The translations under genes and the position numbers were made by a program. Shown here piece by piece: positions 8,693-21,538 of a DNA stretch of 64,000 nt (positions are counted from its first letter, which is position 1; each line of letters starts with the position of its first letter). A model generated the notes under the pieces. That model made no database searches. It worked only from the letters and a program-made list of their open reading frames with translations, and had not been told where the DNA came from. The stretch comes from Desulfurella acetivorans A63 (lineage in GTDB: Bacteria; Campylobacterota_A; Desulfurellia; Desulfurellales; Desulfurellaceae), in NCBI GenBank assembly GCA_000517565.1, contig CP007051.1:1341949-1405948 (forward strand). The letters run 5' to 3'.

Positions 8693-9466
8693 ATGGGTAA
8701 TAATACATTATTATTTTCAAATGGCATACATCAAAACATATTACTTGAGGATTTTGGTAGAGGACAGATGGTGCAAGCTAATGTTCATTTAATTGTTGAT
8801 AACAAAAAAAGTATTATATTGGATCCAGGAGGTCATAAAGTATTTAAACATGTTCTAACGGAAATTGGCGCAATAAGTGGTATTGGTAACATTGAATATA
8901 TTTTTTTGTCCCATCAGGATCCTGATATTGTGTCTGCAATCAACGGCTGGCTAATGACATTACCAAAAACAAAAGCATTAATTTCAAATTTATGGATGAG
9001 GTTTTTGCCTCATATTGGCGTTGATTCACTATTTGTAAACAAATTAATTGGGATTGACGATAAAGGCGCTAAAATAAAACTGGCTGAGAATTGTGAGCTC
9101 TACATATTACCCGCTCATTTTTTACATTCGCCAGGAAATTTTCAAATATACGATCCAATATCAAAAATTCTATATAGCGGCGACCTTGGTGCATCTTTGG
9201 GTCAGGATTATATATATGTGGATAATTTTGAAAATCATACTCAATATATGATTGGTTTTCACAAAAGATATATGTCAAGCAAAATAGCAATTCAAAAATG
9301 GATTAATATGGCAAAACAATTAGATATAGATCTCATTGCTCCCCAGCACGGTGCTTTTATAAAAGGTAAAGAAAATATAGAAAAGTTTTACGCATGGCTT
9401 GAAAATCTTGAACTCGACATAGACAATATGCACTATGAAATACCGCAGGATTTTTTAAATGTTTAG
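8693..9466 (+). CDS. metallo-beta-lactamase-fold di-iron protein (ODP-like)
   Basis: Protein of 257 residues, all of it a flavodiiron-type metallo-beta-lactamase domain without the flavodoxin domain. Metal ligands can be followed: HQDPD (His74, Asp76, Asp78), HSPGNF (His145), SGDLGA (Asp164) and PQHGAF near the C-terminus. The HQDPDI version, rather than the HxExD of flavodiiron reductases, matches the oxygen-binding di-iron proteins (ODP) described as oxygen sensors in chemotaxis. No chemotaxis gene is adjacent; the nearby genes are an ABC transporter and a diguanylate cyclase. The substrate or partner is therefore unknown, and oxygen sensing or reactive nitrogen handling are the best guesses. 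It overlaps the end of fetB, convergently, by 12 bases. Confidence 0.8.
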   Translation: MGNNTLLFSNGIHQNILLEDFGRGQMVQANVHLIVDNKKSIILDPGGHKVFKHVLTEIGAISGIGNIEYIFLSHQDPDIVSAINGWLMTLPKTKALISNLWMRFLPHIGVDSLFVNKLIGIDDKGAKIKLAENCELYILPAHFLHSPGNFQIYDPISKILYSGDLGASLGQDYIYVDNFENHTQYMIGFHKRYMSSKIAIQKWINMAKQLDIDLIAPQHGAFIKGKENIEKFYAWLENLELDIDNMHYEIPQDFLNV

Positions 9467-10233
9467 TTGAGTAAAAGAGTTAAAAAATTTCTTTTGCTCA
9501 AAAGAAAGTAATATATATACCGAAAGACAAATTGCTGTATTAATGGCTATAAGTATTATCATCTGGTATTTTACAGCTTCTATTGGGTTTACACCAGAAA
9601 GTATTTGACCTGTCATCATACCAGGAAGACTAACAATACCCATAGCACTAACGCTTGCAAGTTGTGGCATAAGGCTTGAGCGAAAAGCTCTTTGTTTAAA
9701 TTCGATGGTAGCTTCTCTGGCTGTTGCACCAAGTGAAAGTAATTCTTCTATATATTGTTTGTTTTGGTGTATTTCACTAAAAAAACGCTCTATTGCAATA
9801 GTTGTAGAGTTCATTGAGTTTCCAACAATCATGCCTGCCAATGGGATAAAATACCTCGCTTCGAACGGATTTTTAAGTCCAATACTAACAAAAGACATAA
9901 AAAGTGTAACAACAAACCCTGCAATAAAAATAGCGCCAAATATAATTATATTTGCATGTGAAATTTTACTTTTGTTCTTTCTTTGACAATATTTGCTGCA
10001 AATAAAACCATTATTGCATAATAGATTAAAATGACGAATGCGTTATTTATCTGGAATATAAATTTTAGAATATATCCAATTAGTAAAAGTTGTACGCTCA
10101 TTCTGACAAATGAATATATAATATCTTTTGTTAGCTTAAGGTTTTCTGTATAATTAACAAAAAAAGCTACAAAAAGCATGAAGTAAGATATAATAAGCTG
10201 CACTAATGAAATAGTTTCAACTTGCGATTGCAT
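9455..10233 (-). pseudogene. fetB: FetB-like ABC transporter permease, frameshifted
   Basis: Permease of the FetB/YbbM (UPF0014) family, partner of the ATPase just upstream, implicated in iron export in E. coli. The start at 10233 follows AAGGAT and overlaps the ATPase gene by 17 bases. The N-terminal half (VETISLVQLIISYFML ... RMSVQLLLIGYILKFIF) is in one frame and the C-terminal half (FIPLAGMIVGNSMNS, LSLGATAREA, GIVSLPGMMTGQIL) in another. The frame changes between about 9957 and 9978, where A4 runs occur on the coding strand. One indel restores a protein of about 258 residues, the normal size. It may be a true pseudogene or a sequencing error. Confidence 0.82.
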
Positions 10234-10855
10234 AACGATCCTTAATTTCAATTTTTTGTGTACAAAATTCTTTTATAGATTCTGTGTGAAAAGAACTTAC
10301 TATAAGTTTTTTTTCGGATAGGGATTTTAATAATTGTAGTGTTTTTTGCTCCATTTTAGCATCAAGAGCGCTTGTGGGTTCATCCAGCAATAAACACTCG
10401 GGATCAAGCAATAAAGCTCTTATAATTGCAATGCGTAATTTTTCACCACCTGAAAGTTGATTGATGTTTTTTTCTGCAGCATCCTGTAATTCAAAATATT
10501 CAAGTAAATCATTTAGTTTTTTATCGTCAAAAACTTTATTTGCATTGAATTTAAAACTAAATGGCAATCTAATACAATCCATTACATTCATCTGACCAAG
10601 GATGGGCATTTGAGGTACATAAATACACTTTGACCTAAACTCAGGAATGTTAAATTCATAAATTGATACACCCTTATAAAAAATTTCACCGCTAGATGGT
10701 TTCTCTAAAGCACACATTATTCTTAAAATTGTTGATTTTCCACTACCCGATGCTCCTTTAAGCCATACCAATCCAGAGTATTCAAGCTTGAATGTTGTAT
10801 TTTCTATGATTTTTTTGCCATTTTTTTCCATACTTACATGTTTTAATTCAAACAT
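10217..10855 (-). CDS. fetA: FetA-like ABC transporter ATP-binding protein
   Basis: Cytoplasmic ATPase of 212 residues for the FetB-type permease that follows. Walker A GASGSGKST, Q-loop VPQMP, signature LSGGEKLRIAIIRALL, Walker B CLLLDEPTSALD and H-loop SSFHTE are all intact. The short form without extra C-terminal domain matches FetA/YbbL. The ATG follows a promoter by only 7 bases and has no ribosome site, so the transcript is probably leaderless. Because its permease gene is frameshifted, the transporter may be inactive in this strain. Confidence 0.88.
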   Translation of the reverse strand: MFELKHVSMEKNGKKIIENTTFKLEYSGLVWLKGASGSGKSTILRIMCALEKPSSGEIFYKGVSIYEFNIPEFRSKCIYVPQMPILGQMNVMDCIRLPFSFKFNANKVFDDKKLNDLLEYFELQDAAEKNINQLSGGEKLRIAIIRALLLDPECLLLDEPTSALDAKMEQKTLQLLKSLSEKKLIVSSFHTESIKEFCTQKIEIKDRYAIAS

Positions 10856-12177: not shown

Positions 12178-12205
12178 ATTATACGATAATTAATTCAAGA
12201 ATCAA
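12178..12205 (-). promoter_or_regulatory. promoter of the membrane-protein gene, apparently leaderless
   Basis: Minus strand: TTGATT (12205-12200), 16-base spacer, TATAAT (12183-12178), 6 bases to the ATG at 12171. It overlaps the end of dsrN. Confidence 0.6.
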
Positions 12206-13558
12206 GTTTATTTTCTTTTATCCAATTATAAAAGAAATCGCTTTTCTCGTCAAAAATATGAGAAAATCCTGCCATCACATTATCTTTGAGAGCATAATCA
12301 CAAACTCCATTAATCCCATAACCTCTTATCACATCAAAAAAACATTCAATATCTTTAAATTCAGTAAAGAAACCATGGTGAAATTCATGCGCATATATTT
12401 TTTTATTTTCTATAAAACTATGCTTTTTTTTGGGGGATAGTATTGTATAGCCATGACCTTTTGGCTTATTTGAAAGTTGGGTTTCCAAATTAAATATACC
12501 ACACATTTTAGCCTTATTTTCATTGTACTCAATACTATTTGTTAAATACATCAAACCACCGCATTCGGCAAATATTGGTAAACCTTCTTTAGAAGCCTTT
12601 TTTATTTGATTTCTAAGATCAAAATTTTTTTGTAGCTGATCTAAAAATAACTCAGGAAAACCACCTCCAATATAAATTGCATCGGCTAATGGAATAGACT
12701 CATCTTTTATTGGAGAAAATTTTTTTATTTCTACACCCATGGATTGTAAGTTTTGTAAATTTTGTTTGTAGTAAAAATTAAATGCTTCGTCAAAAGCAAT
12801 AGCAATAACAACCTGTTTTTTTAGTTTTCTAATAGGCACATTATAATTCTCAACATGAAGTTTTGGAGCATTGTAAGCAATCTTAGTAATCTGTGTTACA
12901 TCGAGATAGTTTTCTAAATTAGATGTTATATTTTCTATTAATTCTTGTTTTTTTTCTTCTTGTAATACTGAGGTTAGGCCTAGATGCCTTTGGGTTATTG
13001 ATACGCTTTGGGCTGGTAGAGTACCTAAGATAGGTAAATCTGTATAATTTTTGATTGCTTCTATTAATTTTTTTTCTTGCCTTACAGATTGAATTTTGTT
13101 TAAAATAACACCAGATATAAAAACATCTTTATCAAAATCCACTATTCCTTTTAACAAAGCAACCAAACTTCTACCTAATTCACTTACATCTACTACTATT
13201 ACTACTGGCGTTTTTGTAATCTTAGCTAAACTGGCATTGCTCGTTTTGCCATCCAAATAAATATCATCAAACAAACCATGGTTTCCTTCAATTAAAAAAA
13301 GCTGCATTTACTTTGATCTATTTTGTTAACAAAATAACTATATATTTGATCTTTTAAAAAGAAAAAATCTAAATTAAAACAAGGATTGTTACTTGCAAGT
13401 TCAAGCCACATTGGATCTATATAGTCGGGCCCTTTTTTAAATGTTAAAAGTTTATATTTTCTGGATAAAATCTTCGATAATGCAATTGAAATGGTTGTTT
13501 TTCCAGAACTTTTTTTAAAAGCACTTATGTATATGCGAGGAGCACTAATTTCTTTCAT
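12195..13558 (-). pseudogene. dsrN: DsrN-like siroheme amidase (CbiA/CobB family), frameshifted
   Basis: ATP-dependent amidotransferase of the cobyrinate a,c-diamide synthase family. In dsr loci such a homologue, DsrN, amidates siroheme for sulfite reductase, and the position next to siroheme synthase supports that over cobalamin synthesis. The N-terminal P-loop region (FKKSSGKTTISIAL, FKKGPDYIDP) ends out of frame at a T7 run (13294-13300, written as A on the plus strand). An eighth T would restore SFF-LIEGNHGLFD, the family's EGxxGLFDG site. The rest, including the glutaminase ECGGLMYL with the nucleophile cysteine, is intact to 12195. Repaired length is about 454 residues. An internal ATG at 13307 could start the second fragment. 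Confidence 0.8.
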
Positions 13559-14100: not shown

Positions 14101-14523
14101 TTACGTAAATATTATCTGTGCATCATCTGAAAATGTATAAAACTGTCCAACAGATATTATACCATCTACTTCCGGGCAAAAATCTTCTTCTTTTATACCC
14201 CATAAATCAACAGTAGCACGACATGCATAAATTTTTGCTCCTGAGTCATGTATCATTTCAACAAACTCTCTGATTGTTGGAAAATCAAATTTCTCCATTG
14301 CCTGTTTCATGGTTTCTATTGTGAGTTCCGGGTGTGTTTTGTTTATTAGCGGCAAATTATCCATTTTTGAATCTATTATAGCATCCAAGCCAAATGATGT
14401 AAAAAACAACATTACATCAATACCTTCCATCCTGGCACCATTTGCCATAATAAAACCAGGTAAAACTTCTTCAAAACCATTTCTTGATATAATTATAGAT
14501 ATCTTTTTTAACTTTCTTTCCAT
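14101..14523 (-). CDS. DsrE/DsrF-like sulfurtransferase family protein (DsrE2-like)
   Basis: Protein of 140 residues. The first part (ISIIISRNGFEEVLPGFIMANGA, then DVMLFFTSFGLDAI) and the C-terminal IYACRATVDLWGI are typical of DsrE2-like proteins of the DsrE superfamily. The cysteine of YACRAT is the candidate sulfur carrier. No membrane helices are seen. A GGAGGA site precedes the ATG. It lies in line with dsrK and the siroheme genes, so a role in passing sulfur to or from the dsr system is inferred. DsrE-type carriers are best known from sulfur oxidisers and tRNA thiolation, so the exact substrate is open. Confidence 0.85.
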   Translation of the reverse strand: MERKLKKISIIISRNGFEEVLPGFIMANGARMEGIDVMLFFTSFGLDAIIDSKMDNLPLINKTHPELTIETMKQAMEKFDFPTIREFVEMIHDSGAKIYACRATVDLWGIKEEDFCPEVDGIISVGQFYTFSDDAQIIFT

Positions 14524-14538
14524 TTTTCCTCCTACATT

Positions 14539-14889
14539 TTATGTTCTAACATAAGCATAACCTTCGGCTTGACGCTTAATGATTTCTAAAATACCGGCTT
14601 TAGTTATGCCAACCTCTTCAATTAAGTCTTCTTTGCGTAAATTCAAGTTATTTAAAGAATTATTGCACATTAAAAATACCACACCCATTTCATGCAATTT
14701 CTTTATATCAGTGTATATTTCCTGATCAAACATGTTTTTTACAAATAGCAAAGGACCTTTGTAGTTAGCCACAACCACTATATCGCATTGGCTTTTTGGG
14801 ATTTCTTTTAAAAGGTTATTAATGTTTCCTATTGCTATTTTTAAGGGTTCTATTGCATCAAGTTCAATATGAAACAAAACTTTGTACAT
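14539..14889 (-). CDS. DsrE superfamily protein, second copy
   Basis: Protein of 116 residues of the DsrE/DsrF-like fold: KVLFHIELDAIEPLKIAIGNINNLL, then DIVVVANYKGPLLFV, then GVVFLMCNNSLNNLNL, in which the cysteine occupies the position of the carrier cysteine in the family. It follows dsrK by 9 bases with GGAGT before its ATG and precedes the DsrE2-like gene. The pair might act together as a relay. Function is assigned only at superfamily level. Confidence 0.8.
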   Translation of the reverse strand: MYKVLFHIELDAIEPLKIAIGNINNLLKEIPKSQCDIVVVANYKGPLLFVKNMFDQEIYTDIKKLHEMGVVFLMCNNSLNNLNLRKEDLIEEVGITKAGILEIIKRQAEGYAYVRT

Positions 14890-14898
14890 AAATACTCC

Positions 14899-16369
14899 TT
14901 ACAGTACAATTGCAGCGCTTACCAGCTGATGTATACCGCCAACCCAGTCTCTTTCAAAACCATAAAGAGGAAACATTGCGTAAAACTGTGTTTTGCATAT
15001 TGCACAAATTGTAGCAAAAAAGTTTACATTATTTTTATCAACAACTTCCTTGAAAGCCTGCATCCTTGGCATTACACCATTTATGCGTGTTTGCATAATT
15101 TCGTCTGTTAAAAGTCCGGCGCCTGCACCGCAGCAGAATGTTTTTGCTTTTATTGCTCCTTCCTGCATATCTACAAAATTATTACATACAGATTTAATTA
15201 AATCCCTTGGTATGCTAAATTGGTCTCCTGGTTGGGTGCCCATACGAGATGCCCTTGCTACATTGCATGGATCGTGATAGGTTACTGTTTTATCGTCGTT
15301 TGCGCTTTTATCTATTTTAATTACACCATCTCTAATAAGGCCAAGTGTGAAATCGCATATATGGGATGGCTGCGGGTATTTTGGGTCCAGAAAATCAAAT
15401 GGTCCATTCATTGTATTTGAGTAATTATAAGCTGCTCTCCAGGCATGACCGCACTCGCCTATAATAACACGCTTTACTTTGAGCCTTTTTGCTTCTTCCC
15501 AGATACGTTTGTTTATCTCTTTGGTATTTGTGTAACTTCCTATAAACATACCAAAGTTTGCAGCCTCAGATGCATAAGATGATAATGTATAACTAATACC
15601 TGCTTTGTAAAATACCTTCGCATAACCAAACATTGACTCAATATGCGGTATGGCAAAAAAATCAGCAGACGGCGGCACAAGCAAAACTTCTGCGCCTTCT
15701 TCATCAATTGGTATTTTTATGTCTTTACCTGTTTCATCTTTTAAATCTTCTTCAAATTCTGCAATTGTATTTTTTAATGCGTTTGCATCTATGCCAATAT
15801 TGTTACCTGTTCTGTAAACTTGTGTTATTGTGTTTGTAGCATACTTTTCACCAACACCAATAGAGTTCATTATTTCTCTTGCAGCCATTGTAATTTCTGC
15901 TGTATCTAATACCATAAGGGCAAAAATAAGAGCATCTTCTGCATTCCGAACACTGGTAAAAATAAGACATCCATTGTTTTAATACATGTTCGCTAAATGG
16001 CTCTCCTTTTGAGCTAAACGGTGTAAAATAGTACCTGTAAACCTTGCGCATAAGCTCTGCTCTGCCAACAGGTGTATTGTTGATATCGCCACTACCTAAG
16101 AAAAACTGGCACTTATCCGTGCAAGCACCGCATCTTACACATATATCCATGTATGTCTTTAGTGCCTTATTGTTGTCTAAAAGTTCTTTAAACACACCAA
16201 CTGCCTTATCTTGCCAGCCTTCTTGAAGTTTCTTTGGAAATCCCAAAGTTTCCATATCTTCTTCAAGGGCTAAAAAAGTAAATTCACTAGCCTGATTGCC
16301 TTTTCTTAAAAGTTTTGGGGTCTGAATTTTGCCCGTAAGTTTATGAATATGGTAGTGTTCTTTTGACAT
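14899..16369 (-). pseudogene. dsrK: DsrK, iron-sulfur subunit of the DsrMK menaquinol oxidoreductase, frameshifted
   Basis: Cytoplasmic HdrD-like subunit that would pass electrons from DsrM to DsrC. The N-terminal fragment carries two [4Fe-4S] motifs (CVRCGACTDKC and CSECRRCSYFCPYGI). The C-terminal fragment carries HEVG-type and CCG sequences, including TFCCGAGAGLLTDE and ATICAICKTQF, as in subunits that bind the catalytic iron-sulfur cofactor. The frame breaks at about 15905-15910, just after CPYGI. Removing one base from the coding string GGTATTAGATACA would give GI-DTAEITMAAREI and a continuous protein of about 489 residues. The break is not in a long homopolymer. The gene starts 11 bases before the dsrM stop side, in operon order dsrM-dsrK. 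Confidence 0.88.
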
Positions 16370-16380
16370 TTTGCCTCTCC

Positions 16381-17151
16381 TTAAATTGTTAACCTTGTTG
16401 TTCTTTCATCTGTATATCTATTTTCCCTTACATCATCATTCATAGCAAGTGTTGGAGAAAAGAATATACCTACAAAGTGCATAATTTTACTAAATGGTAT
16501 GTAGGCAAGCAGTATTAACACTAAAGTATAGTGTAGCAGGAAAAATGGATTGTGTGGTATATCAACTGGCTGGAAAATAAATAGCTTATTAAAAAATGCG
16601 TCCAATTGCACCACACTTTTTTCAAGCGCAGCTGGACTTTGGAATACTATCTCAGACAATCCTGCTATTGTAATTAGCATCAACAATACAAGTATAAAAT
16701 AATCTGATAGTACACTTATAAATTTAACCCTTTCTACAAATATTCGCCTTAAAAACAAATAAACCAAACTTATAAGCATAAGTGTACCAAACACAAGACC
16801 TATGGGTACAAGTAAATTATACCATGCTGGAGGATTGCCGTGATAAAAATCATACACATAATGCCTTAAAACATGCTGAATAAGCACTATAGCCAAACTT
16901 ACGTGAAATACATACCCTCCAACCCAGGTACTTTTGTTTGACCTATAAAGGCTTTTAAAGAAAAAAACCTCCCCAAGTACCCTAAAAAACGCTCCTGTTT
17001 TGGTTTTAGGTGCTGGGGTAAGAGGTATTTTTACGGGCATAGGCGTTTTAGCGTAAACTATTATTTTCCAAACCACACCAATAATCAAAATTGCAAAAGC
17101 AGCATATGTCAAAATAACGTACATAAAACTCACAAAATCTAAATTATCCAT
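16381..17151 (-). CDS. dsrM: DsrM, cytochrome b subunit of the DsrMK complex
   Basis: Membrane subunit of 256 residues in the NarI/DsrM family that oxidises menaquinol and feeds electrons to DsrK. About five to six membrane helices are visible. Histidines placed as heme b ligands occur in HVSLAIVLIQHVLRH and in HNPFFLLHYTLVLILLAY ... MHFVG. The start at 17151 follows GGAGGGG; the upstream in-frame codon is not needed. It is intact, unlike its partner DsrK. No dsrJ, dsrO or dsrP is present, so this is the minimal DsrMK form. Confidence 0.9.
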   Translation of the reverse strand: MDNLDFVSFMYVILTYAAFAILIIGVVWKIIVYAKTPMPVKIPLTPAPKTKTGAFFRVLGEVFFFKSLYRSNKSTWVGGYVFHVSLAIVLIQHVLRHYVYDFYHGNPPAWYNLLVPIGLVFGTLMLISLVYLFLRRIFVERVKFISVLSDYFILVLLMLITIAGLSEIVFQSPAALEKSVVQLDAFFNKLFIFQPVDIPHNPFFLLHYTLVLILLAYIPFSKIMHFVGIFFSPTLAMNDDVRENRYTDERTTRLTI

Positions 17152-17211: not shown

Positions 17212-17553
17212 TTATACACAGCCTGTTGGTTTTGATAAGCCTGCATACCTAACAAGCTGCCTTGCTGGGCCTTCTGGAAATAAAACATATATGTGCTTGT
17301 TGCCTTCCCTGACATTTGGTAAATTGCAAATTTCTGCAACCTGTTTTGCTACAGCTCTAATGGAAGGGGCAACCTGGTATTCTTTGTAGTACTCTCTTAC
17401 ATAATCAATCAATTTCCAATGTTCTTCTTTTAGTTCTATGCCATCCTGTTTTGCCATAAACTCTGCAAGTTCTTTGCTCCAATCTTCCTGATGCTGGATA
17501 TAGCCTTCATCATCTATCTCTATTTTTTTTCCGTTAAAATCTAAAAAAGCCAT
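17212..17553 (-). CDS. dsrC: DsrC/TusE-family sulfur-carrier protein lacking CysB
   Basis: Protein of 113 residues with the DsrC fold: EIDDEGYIQHQEDWSKELAE, HWKLIDYVREYYKE, APSIRAVAK. It ends in KPTGCV, so the penultimate cysteine (CysA, Cys112) is present. In DsrC of sulfite reducers a second cysteine (CysB) sits 11 positions earlier; here that position is Val101 (codon GTT at 17253-17251), in QLVRYAGLSKPTGCV. The cysteine pattern is therefore that of TusE, though the gene lies in a dsr operon between dsrL and dsrM. An AAAGGAGG site precedes the ATG. Without CysB the intramolecular DsrC trisulfide described for sulfite reducers could not form. Confidence 0.92.
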   Translation of the reverse strand: MAFLDFNGKKIEIDDEGYIQHQEDWSKELAEFMAKQDGIELKEEHWKLIDYVREYYKEYQVAPSIRAVAKQVAEICNLPNVREGNKHIYVLFPEGPARQLVRYAGLSKPTGCV

Positions 17554-17566
17554 AAAACCTCCTTTT

Positions 17567-18971
17567 TTACATTTTTTCTATATAGCCACATGGACAATTT
17601 TCAAAACACTTCATACACCCATCACATGTTTCAAGATGAAATTCATAATGCTGACCCTTTGGTAATTTCTTTACAGCTCCATGAGAACAATATGTAAAGC
17701 AATTACCGCAGTCAAAACAAAGTCCGCAACTCATGCAACGCTTGGTTTCTTCAATAAACTCTTCCATTGACAAAGCATTCATGAAAGGTTCAAAATCTTT
17801 AACACGCTCATTTGGTTCTCTAAACGTTCTTTCATGGCGCGGTTTTGTTTCGTATAAATCTAAATGCATCTTGTCTGATTCGATAACTTTTCTTGTATCC
17901 TGTTCTATAATTTTTTTTACCTGTTATATGTTCAATTATATTTGCTGCTGCGGCAAAACCATGCCCAATTGCCGTAGTTACATACATCAACCTCGGACCC
18001 ACTACATCGCCACCTGCAAATACTTCTTCGTAAGCATCGAGGGCTTCTCTTGAAGCTTTTTTATCAAAAGTCTCTTTGTCTGGCACAGTTCTTCTATAGG
18101 CGAATGTGACGTTTGCACCCCATCTCTTGCTTATCATAGCAGCATCTGCTGCCGTATCTGCGCCAACTACCACAACATCTTTACCTATATCCAATTTCTC
18201 ACCATTTGCAAAACGGTATAAAAACTCAAGTCCGCTATAAACACCTTTTATGCTATCAATATTTTCTAATCTAGGTTTTTCTGGTTTGTATGCACCTACT
18301 GCAAGGTAAATACAATCAAATTCTTTCTTTAATTCTTAAATATCTAGATCTTTGCCTAATGCCTTGGAGCATTTAATTTCTACTCCAAGATCAACAATCC
18401 TTTGTATTTCTGCATTTACAATTTCTTTTGGTAATCTGAAATTAGGTATACCATAGTATAAAAAACCACCGGGTTTTTCTTCTTTTTCAAATATGGTTAC
18501 CTTTACACCTCTTCTTGCAAGGTGGTATGCACAGGATAAGCCAGATGGCCCAGAGCCTATAATTGCTACTTTTGCATCGTATGTCTCATCAAGTTTTTTT
18601 AAAGGTAACTTATGTTTTAGTGCAAAATCGCCAATAAACATTTCGCAGGCATTGATATTTACGGCACTATCCTTGTCTTTTCTATTGCATCTTGATTCGC
18701 AAGGATGGGGGCAAACCCTACCTGTAGTTGAAGGTAGAGGGTTTGTTTGAGCAATAATATAGAAAGCGCCCTCCAGCGCTTCTTCATAGGTTCTGCCGTA
18801 ATCTTGTGCCTGAGCAATATACTGGAGAAATTCCCTAACCTGTTCTCCATTTGGACATGTATCAGAACAAGGAGGGCGCTTTTCTACGTATATTGGCCTA
18901 TCAGAAGAATATTCTGTGCCAGTTGGTTTACTGAAACTTTCAATACTTTTTTTAACCTTTACTACAGCCAT
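17567..18971 (-). pseudogene. dsrL: DsrL-like NAD(P)H-dependent iron-sulfur flavoprotein, with stop codon and frameshift
   Basis: Homologue of the glutamate synthase small subunit, arranged as in DsrL. An N-terminal iron-sulfur region (CSDTCPNGEQVREFLQY, CPHPCESRC) is followed by an FAD fingerprint (IIGSGPSGLSCAYHLARRG), then a nucleotide-binding VVVGADTAADAAM, and a C-terminal ferredoxin pair (CMSCGLCFDCGNCFTYC and CDGCMKCFENCPCG). It would supply electrons from a pyridine nucleotide to DsrAB or DsrC. Two lesions are seen. An in-frame TAA at 18338-18336 splits GKDLDI from ELKKEFDCIYLAVGA in the same frame. A frameshift occurs at an A8 run (T8 at 17911-17918), where one A fewer would join ITGKK to IIEQDTRK. 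Repaired length is about 467 residues. Confidence 0.85.
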
Positions 18972-18980
18972 AAAAGCTCC

Positions 18981-19223
18981 TTATTGTGTTTGATCTTCAG
19001 GCAAAGTCAGAAAGCTCCCTCCTGCGTAACCATAAATCAATTCACCGTTATCTGTAAGTTCTTTTATAGCGGCTTTTGCATCTTTTCTTGTTATATTCTC
19101 GCTTTGAAAGTTTTGCTCAACTTCTTTTTCTAAATCCTGAGGTTTAAATCTTTTTTTGCCGTGGTATTCCTTTACTAGATTAACCACAAATTCCTTTATC
19201 TTTTGTTTTTGCTCATCAGTCAT
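18981..19223 (-). CDS. dsrD: DsrD, small winged-helix protein of the dsr operon
   Basis: Protein of 80 residues with the winged-helix pattern of DsrD: KIKEFVVNLVKEYHGKKRF, then KDAKAAIKELTDNGELIYGYAGGSFL. DsrD accompanies dsrAB in organisms that use the enzyme reductively, and has been reported to activate DsrAB. Its presence therefore argues that this locus descends from a reductive pathway. The start at 19223 follows AAGGAGG; an in-frame codon further upstream lacks a site. It lies 47 bases after dsrB. Confidence 0.85.
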   Translation of the reverse strand: MTDEQKQKIKEFVVNLVKEYHGKKRFKPQDLEKEVEQNFQSENITRKDAKAAIKELTDNGELIYGYAGGSFLTLPEDQTQ

Positions 19224-19270
19224 GGTAGCCTCCTTACAATCGTGCATAGTTCGAGTAATTCATCGTTGCT

Positions 19271-20323
19271 TCACCTAATCCTGAAATCATCAATATGGTA
19301 TTTTGTAAACTCAAAGCCCGTTATTTTAAAGAATTTCGGCCATCCAATCCTATCAATCCATTCTGCTACACGTTCTCCTTTTCTTGCACCTTCTTTGTAT
19401 GCTTCAAGTATTGTCCTTACGGCTTCGATAACTTCTGGCCATCTTGGCGGATTATTTGGAAGCCATGGCACTACCAGTTTTGAAAAAGTTGGCTTGGTTC
19501 TTGCATTTGAAACTTTGCCCCCAATAAATATTGCCACTCCATCATTTAGAGGATCAGCTATAGGAAGCGCAGGGCAAACTGTATAGCAGTTACCGCAATA
19601 AACGCATCTATCTTCATCGATTTCCACAGAAGGCTTACCATCTATAGTTTTTGGCCTTACTGCATCTACCGGACACGCCGCTATTGTACTTGGTATCTCG
19701 CACAAATCCTTTACCCTATCTGCCATAACTCTTGGTGGTCTTCTGTGCATTCCCACAATTGCAATATCAGAAGCACCCACAGAACCACACATATTAAGAC
19801 AACACGCAAATGCCATTCTTACCTTTGCGGGTAATTTGTCTGAAACAAAATAATCATAAAACTCATCCATTAAGGCTTTAACTACACCTGATGCATAACT
19901 TGCAGATGTATGGCAATGTAGCCAACCTTGAGTATGTACAATATTGCCAAGCGAATGATCGATCCCACCAACTGGAAAACCCAATGCCTGTACTTCTTTA
20001 ATTAAGGGTTCAATATTTTCTTCTTTATCAAGAAGAAATTCTAAGTTATTTCTCGTTGTAAATTTTAAGTAACCGCCGCAATACTTATCTGCAAGATCAG
20101 ATATTTCCCTTACAAAATCACTGCTAACTATCCTTGTTGAGCCTACCCTTACAGTATAGAGCTTCTCACCAGACTCTGAGACATGAACCATAACACCTGG
20201 TTTTAAAATCTCATGATACAACCACTTACCATAATTTCTTTTAATTATAGGCGGTAAAAAATCTTCATAGTGTGGTGGACCTATATCTGTAATTCTTACT
20301 GTTCCTTTATCTACATCTGGCAT
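19271..20323 (-). CDS. dsrB: dissimilatory sulfite reductase subunit beta
   Basis: Catalytic subunit of 350 residues, full length. DsrB features include the N-terminal [12 protein letters not shown], the [10 protein letters not shown] segment, the siroheme/iron-sulfur cysteine motif [22 protein letters not shown], and an inserted ferredoxin domain (CPVDAV ... [16 protein letters not shown]). With DsrA it reduces sulfite, and the product sulfur is taken up by DsrC. The ATG follows GGAGG, which overlaps the dsrA stop codon. The reading frame is clean, in contrast to several neighbours. Confidence 0.95.
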
Positions 20324-20326
20324 AGT

Positions 20327-21433
20327 TTAACCCTCCTTTCCTTCTTCTTCATCATCTGGCACTAAATATTCTTCAAATTTGATAAATGGATTTGCCCTTG
20401 GATACTCTACCATTTCTGGTAGTGGATCCAAACCTATAGCTTCAAGGAAATTCCCTACGCCTACCCTTTGGATTAATTCTCCTACACGTTCTCTGTTTGT
20501 ACCGTATTCATCCCAGAAATCCCATATCTTTTGAATCAAGTCTTTTAAGAAAGCGTAATCTTCTTCTTTGTCTTTATTTACATCGTAAAAAGGTATAAGT
20601 ATAAACCCAAGCCTTGGATCCTGGACCATAGGTACTTTAGCACCTATTCTAATTTGCGCACCTTTTTCTAATCCAGGTCTTAGAGCTTTTGGCATAGAGT
20701 TAATGCAATGCATGCATTTTACGCAGTTTGAATCATCGATAGTTAATTTGCCATCAGTATAATCCATGCAATGAGTAGGACATTTATCAACTACATACTT
20801 TTTAATATCAAATTTCTTTGCGTATTCTGCAACTTCCTTTTGGTCAATTCTGATATTGGCTTTCCATACACCCACAATAGATAAATCAGACCTGGCACCA
20901 GATGCTATGCAATCGTTTGGGCAACCTGCACATTTGATCTTAAACTTATAGTTAAATGTTGGCCTGTGCATCTCGTTTTGGAATTCTCTTGTTAAGTTAT
21001 CTGTGATGTGGAGTGTATCGTAGGTTGCCCACTCGCAACGAGCTGGTCCCACGCAACAGCTTGGTGTTCTGAGTGCTGAACCACTGCCACCAAGATCAAA
21101 ACCTAAGTGAGTACATTTTTGAAATAGCTCTTCTGCTTCTTCCTGTTTAAAACCAAGTATCTGGATATCACCTGTTGAACCATGAAAGTTAAATAAACCA
21201 CCTGCGTGTTCATCACAAATATCCGCCAGCTTCCTCAATACATCCGATGTGTAAAAAAAACCTTCAATCTGATTTAATCTAGCCGTATGATATTCTTTAA
21301 CACCTGGATATTCATCTGGTTCATCAGAAAACCTACCAACTATACCTCCACCATAACCTCTAACACCTGCCATACCCCCATGTTTCCAGTGAGGTATTCT
21401 GTCTTGATAGGATTTTTCCAGTTGACCTATCAA
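20327..21433 (-). CDS. dsrA: dissimilatory sulfite reductase subunit alpha, N-terminus missing
   Basis: Alpha subunit; 368 residues are visible. Signatures: HWKHGGMAGVRGYGGGIVGR, NFHGSTGDIQ, LRTPSCCVGPARCEW, KIKCAGCPNDCIASGARSD, and a ferredoxin domain with CPTHCMD and CVKCMHCINSMPKAL. The first usable codon is a TTG at 21433 within what is normally residue 45-55 of DsrA. Four codons further upstream in frame is a TAG, and no other frame in the A/T-rich upstream sequence encodes the missing PLLDELEKGPWPSF-type N-terminus. No ribosome site precedes the TTG. Either the protein starts unusually late or the 5' end of the gene has been lost. Confidence 0.88.
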   Translation of the reverse strand: MIGQLEKSYQDRIPHWKHGGMAGVRGYGGGIVGRFSDEPDEYPGVKEYHTARLNQIEGFFYTSDVLRKLADICDEHAGGLFNFHGSTGDIQILGFKQEEAEELFQKCTHLGFDLGGSGSALRTPSCCVGPARCEWATYDTLHITDNLTREFQNEMHRPTFNYKFKIKCAGCPNDCIASGARSDLSIVGVWKANIRIDQKEVAEYAKKFDIKKYVVDKCPTHCMDYTDGKLTIDDSNCVKCMHCINSMPKALRPGLEKGAQIRIGAKVPMVQDPRLGFILIPFYDVNKDKEEDYAFLKDLIQKIWDFWDEYGTNRERVGELIQRVGVGNFLEAIGLDPLPEMVEYPRANPFIKFEEYLVPDDEEEGKEG

Positions 21434-21538
21434 ATTTAGATACTAATAAAAGTCAATGAAAAAAATTAAAATAAAATTATTTTTATTTTTTTATATTTTT
21501 ATTCCTTTAAAACAATCATAATTAAAACATTACTTAAT

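Follow-up and report, generated by a model that had tools for sequence, protein, structure and literature searches.

The dsrC gene and its neighbours

The analysed stretch of DNA, a window of 64,000 nucleotides from Desulfurella acetivorans, carries a dsr operon on its reverse strand. The dsrC gene (17212..17553 (-), stop codon included) encodes a protein of 113 amino acid residues, and the translation of 17553..17212 (-) ends in GPARQLVRYAGLSKPTGCV. The penultimate cysteine, CysA, is kept as Cys112, and a further cysteine is found at position 76. CysB is missing, and the residue 11 positions ahead of Cys112 is Val101 (codon 17251..17253 (-), GTT). When the protein was aligned to the solved DsrC of A. 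vinosum (1yx3, E 4e-34), Val101 was placed opposite CysB, which is the C of PAKQACRFAGL, and Cys112 opposite CysA. The first-pass annotation had claimed a DsrC with Val101 in place of CysB and with the last cysteine retained, and both the translation and the alignment uphold this.

The identity of the protein was tested with family profiles. It matched Pfam DsrC (PF04358) and NCBIfam TIGR03342 (122 bits, cut-off 53.5), did not reach the cut-off of the TusE equivalog (100 bits, cut-off 191) and failed the METABOLIC motif GPXKXXCXXXGXPXPXXCX. The best Foldseek match of its AlphaFold2 model (pLDDT 92) was 1yx3 with a TM of 0.82. In this model Val101 is located inside the last helix (96-103), which is followed by a loose tail of low confidence (pLDDT 48) that gives no basis for a distance between Cys76 and Cys112. 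With oxidative-type DsrC (TIGR03342/PF04358; for example A. vinosum, PDB 1yx3) the protein shares the fold, the length including the insertion before the C-terminal helix, CysA and an operon with dsrAB and dsrMK, but its clade has Val or Ala for CysB and the preceding residue is changed as well (QAC to QLV or QLA). RspA proteins have a DsrC-like fold and lack both C-terminal cysteines, whereas here CysA is kept. Single-cysteine dsrC/tusE genes borne by phages also keep the second cysteine alone, but these are found outside complete dsr operons and were interpreted as TusE (PMC8190135).

The gene is preceded by dsrL (17567..18971 (-), of the DsrL-2 type as judged by the D. amilsii relative) and followed by dsrM (16381..17145 (-)), which is intact with an uncertain start codon position; these are the neighbours that had been named before. 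Further upstream are a small DsrD-like gene (18981..19247 (-)), which has no Pfam or NCBIfam match and was assigned by its position and its similarity to genome G035, dsrB (19271..20323 (-)) and dsrA (20327..21433 (-)). Downstream of dsrM are dsrK (14899..16369 (-)), an intact gene for a DsrE-like protein (14539..14889 (-), Pfam DsrE), an intact gene for a DsrE2-like protein (14101..14523 (-), Pfam DrsE_2) and dsrN/cbiA (12195..13558 (-)). The DsrC is therefore encoded together with dsrAB and dsrMK, which are partly broken in the window strain. Taken together, the gene at 17553..17212 (-) is a true dsr-operon dsrC without CysB.

Two simple explanations, a read error at codon 101 and a canonical DsrC elsewhere in the genome, were raised with the original claim, and neither was borne out. 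Codon 101 is GTT in the window strain, GTT in the congener G002, GTA in the congener G001 and GTA in the MAG G014 of the same order. Since the valine is kept across a silent codon change, a read error is ruled out; the dsrC genes of the window strain and G001 are separated by 46 synonymous and 8 non-synonymous differences. A pair of compensating indels (AAGG/TGTT) masking a KAAC motif was rejected, because RQLV or KQLA is found in all relatives and the codons vary silently within the Desulfurellales. A two-cysteine DsrC was sought across the whole genome of the window strain and none was found. The single other DsrC homologue (C1:223047-223349) ends in GPAKKAAKIAGIKKPVGCV and likewise has no CysB. 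At this place (L041:9989-10770) it is directly followed by a DsrE2-like gene.

Decay of the operon in the window strain

Between 12195 and 21440, five genes that are all intact in two congeners are broken in the assembly of the window strain, which the first-pass annotation had not noted. The dsrA gene has lost its true start codon and leader together with the first 37 codons by a deletion of about 180 bp at a short repeat at about 21433, as compared with both congeners (junction at about 21433-21440). The C-terminus of dsrB is shifted by an additional C at about 19281. In dsrL, which is unbroken with 560 residues in the two congeners, one T has been gained at about 17911, and about 280-290 bp are deleted at about 18023-18025. 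The dsrK gene is broken by an additional A at about 15908, whereas in the congeners it is unbroken (489-491 residues) with all the Fe-S and CCG cysteines. The dsrN/cbiA gene has lost one A from a run at about 13301. The loss of one C at about 9961 has likewise shifted, as compared with the congeners, a membrane protein gene (9455-10251) that adjoins a gene for an ABC ATPase.

Sequencing errors throughout the genome were rejected as the reason for the broken genes of the operon: 5 of 15 open reading frames were flagged in the dsr region and 3 of 86 in a control stretch of 120 kb (Fisher p about 0.002), and two deletions come in addition. Because these two deletions are of considerable size, the data argue for a true decay of the dsr operon in this strain. 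A selective retention of dsrC within the decaying operon was rejected as well, since the intact genes are also short ones and chance suffices.

The state of dsrA, dsrB, dsrL, dsrK and dsrN could suggest that the loss of CysB is simply a part of this decay. The same valine is present in the MAG and in the two congeners with intact operons, so the loss predates the decay and this explanation is extremely improbable. For D. acetivorans, where dsrA is Desace_1402, it has been stated that thiosulfate is not respired and that DsrC and DsrMK are lacking (PMC5317093). The window shows otherwise, since it contains unbroken dsrC and dsrM genes as well as a dsrK gene, which is broken.

Distribution and ancestry of the CysB loss

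CysB was missing in 4/4 Desulfurellales that carry dsr genes and have a readable DsrC in the dsr operon, and the DsrC of the MAG G014 has one cysteine in total. The same trait was observed in a second lineage, the phylum of G035. DsrC is present in 23 of its 30 genomes, and dsrA passes the cut-off in 23. All 25 full DsrC sequences from the 23 genomes read GPAKQLA[KM][IV][AS]GLPKPTGCV with Ala at the CysB position, and each contains exactly one cysteine. This lineage is probably Ca. Acidulodesulfobacterales, because the order and content of the G035 operon (dsrN-A-B-D-L-C-M-K-E-F-H) fit the published group (PMC6776010). Downstream of the G035 operon are open reading frames that were read as sat, aprBA and qmo-like genes by sequence and order, with no profile test. 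The genome G087 has two places with dsrA and dsrC that belong to different subgroups (L164, which is G087:C168, and G087:C108), and both DsrC proteins are without CysB. In the class relative G020, dsrABDL is present on a contig that stops ahead of dsrC, and two short N-terminal DsrC fragments are located where contigs end. At least one of these two is not part of a dsr operon. One of the fragments adjoins a sulfide:quinone-reductase-like gene, and the fragments resemble the second DsrC homologue of the window strain. Among 28 loci with a CysB-less dsrC, 26 have dsrL before and dsrM after the gene, and the other two have one of both neighbours as far as the contig reaches.

For comparison, a search for dsrA was made in 386 genomes drawn from across families, which gave 27 carriers outside both CysB-less lineages. 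All 25 carriers with a full DsrC (20 families) had a copy with CysB. CysB was also present in 30/30 loci read from the phylum of G047 and in 15/15 dsr-type DsrC of the sister phylum of G329. Additional CysB-less DsrC-like copies were observed in some genomes (e.g. L193, L194 and L137), alongside a CysB copy. A second DsrC bearing CysB was looked for in the genomes of the CysB-less lineages and none was found. The first-pass annotation had presented the loss as a matter of one operon. It is a trait of a clade that comprises the Desulfurellales and the 23 genomes of the second lineage.

The ancestry of the loss was followed in a DsrC tree with 47 rows, which was repeated with the C-terminal 19 residues removed. 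The CysB-less proteins from dsr operons are united in a single clade (100/100), which lies within the oxidative-type DsrC and apart from the TusE-like proteins, and this clade also stands when the last 19 residues are cut off. Within it the Desulfurellales DsrC branch lies inside the second, probably Acidulodesulfobacterales, lineage (99/88). CysB was lost once within the oxidative-type DsrC, in common for both lineages, and has been kept lost since. The nested position of the Desulfurellales DsrC suggests that the dsr operon was passed between phyla. In a passage of PMC10504309 the two lineages are grouped together for several Dsr proteins with no remark on the cysteine.

The tree also bears on the question whether the gene only happens to be located in a dsr operon and encodes a TusE-like carrier that serves tRNA thiolation or sulfur trafficking. 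A TusE-like pattern had been noted for the window DsrC, and this holds for one residue: as in TusE, CysA is the only C-terminal cysteine and CysB is replaced, and genes for a DsrE-like and a DsrE2-like protein are close by. The protein as a whole, however, is on a separate branch with DsrC, scores well below the TusE equivalog cut-off and is encoded between dsrL and dsrM in an operon with dsrAB. A separate TusE-like copy adjoining a DsrE2-like gene exists in the genome, and under a TusE-like role 23 genomes of the second lineage would have dsrAB but no DsrC at all. We regard this possibility as very unlikely.

Possible function of a DsrC with one thiol

In the accepted scheme, sulfite is converted by DsrAB and DsrC to an intramolecular trisulfide between CysA and CysB of DsrC, which is then reduced by DsrMK (PMC5516251, PMC10504309). 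With only one cysteine in DsrC, as in nearly all members of the clade, an intramolecular disulfide or trisulfide is impossible. In A. vinosum, sulfur is bound by CysA only and CysB is dispensable for the loading (PMC3397948). For a one-cysteine DsrC working with DsrAB, no biochemistry was found in the literature searched.

As one of two options, it had been proposed that DsrMK cannot recycle this DsrC as usual. This appears not right or incomplete, since the catalytic cysteines of DsrMK are kept, including all Fe-S and CCG cysteines of DsrK. A cysteine that could compensate for CysB was sought in DsrA, B, L, M, K, D, E, F and H, and none was gained clade-wide; the differences were mostly losses or variants common to other DsrK. 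In DsrA an Asn replaces the Pro just before the conserved Y-K-x-K-x-K in 12/12 sequences of the CysB-less group and in 0/11 others (aligned loci including L040). G020, whose contig ends before dsrC, was counted in the former group and likewise has Asn. The solved DsrA chains also have Pro at this position, and PMC8190135 gives KxKxK as a motif for substrate binding. The Asn is possibly a co-adaptation to the CysB-less DsrC, but shared ancestry explains it as well.

Another cysteine might stand in for CysB, with Cys76 of the Desulfurella DsrC and a cysteine in one of the partner proteins as the candidates. Both congeners have Cys76, which could serve as a second thiol in that genus; this counts against a one-thiol mechanism there. 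The MAG G014 has Tyr at position 76, the DsrC of the second lineage has no Cys76 and only one cysteine in all, and no partner cysteine was gained throughout the clade. Such a substitution is improbable.

Most likely the DsrC is a one-thiol carrier. CysA would take the sulfur at the sirohaem of DsrAB, and DsrC would then leave DsrAB as DsrC-S-SH or as a mixed di- or trisulfide with another thiol, which may belong to a second DsrC or to a DsrE-type protein. DsrMK would reduce the persulfide or mixed sulfide and sulfide would be released. About four electrons per sulfite would then go to DsrAB, with DsrL-2/NADPH as the candidate donor, and about two would pass via DsrMK. The basis of this count is the trisulfide scheme, in which, as Santos et al. 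2015 reportedly describe, two electrons go to DsrAB and four via DsrMK. By this reasoned count, the need for four electrons at DsrAB would fit the NADPH-linked DsrL-2 of D. amilsii, which is an NADPH enzyme (PMC7596348). This fit is not a proof, because DsrL co-occurs with two-cysteine DsrC in peatland Acidobacteria (PMC6018796). A reductive role in D. amilsii is favoured because, according to work cited by PMC10504309, its Dsr proteins are linked with the respiration of thiosulfate.

The one-cysteine DsrC could instead work in the oxidative direction, where DsrE-type proteins load CysA with persulfide and DsrAB oxidises this directly to sulfite, so that the trisulfide step is skipped. The DsrC groups with the oxidative-type proteins, both in our tree and in PMC10504309, the second lineage has dsrEFH with the conserved DsrE cysteine after dsrK, and sulfide oxidation has also been proposed for Acidulodesulfobacterales (PMC6776010). 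The second lineage may thus run the pathway oxidatively, which counts against the reductive one-thiol mechanism. On the other side, dsrAB is of the reductive type in the published trees (PMC6776010, PMC10504309), a DsrD-like gene is present, and Desulfurella respires sulfur or thiosulfate with an operon that has only the DsrE-like and DsrE2-like genes and no dsrEFH. We consider the oxidative direction rather unlikely.

That the protein is a true DsrC that lost CysB once and is still in use as a one-thiol carrier, with DsrMK reducing its persulfide or mixed sulfide, is somewhat probable. The suggestion that the operon runs another chemistry was reasonable and is strengthened by the 23 further genomes with a one-cysteine DsrC. 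It applies to the relatives, and with the operon decayed no Dsr chemistry need take place in the window strain itself. More tentatively, two bacterial lineages may have a complete dissimilatory sulfite/sulfate system without the DsrC trisulfide, where a one-thiol DsrC would pass a persulfide or an intermolecular di- or trisulfide to DsrMK and the electron supply would move away from the quinone pool towards NADPH by way of DsrL-2, with less energy gained per sulfite.

According to PMC3397948, CysB is strictly conserved where the energy metabolism is based on sulfur and occurs only in organisms that have DsrAB; PMC8190135 likewise describes it as strictly conserved. Annotation software separates DsrC from TusE by CysB (PMC8851854), and at least one DsrC phylogeny was limited to two-cysteine sequences (PMC5516251). 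With CysB used as a filter in annotation and phylogeny, the CysB-less clade is excluded by design, and motif filters will score these bacteria as lacking DsrC. No earlier report of a CysB loss in organisms with dsrAB was found in the literature searched, and priority is not certain. The two-cysteine DsrC is assumed to be universal in sulfite and sulfate respirers; here a whole branch keeps the last cysteine only, so the accepted sulfur handover cannot operate there. In this clade half of the trisulfide mechanism has been deleted by nature, and since it includes a genus in cultivation (D. amilsii), whether the trisulfide is needed can be tested directly.
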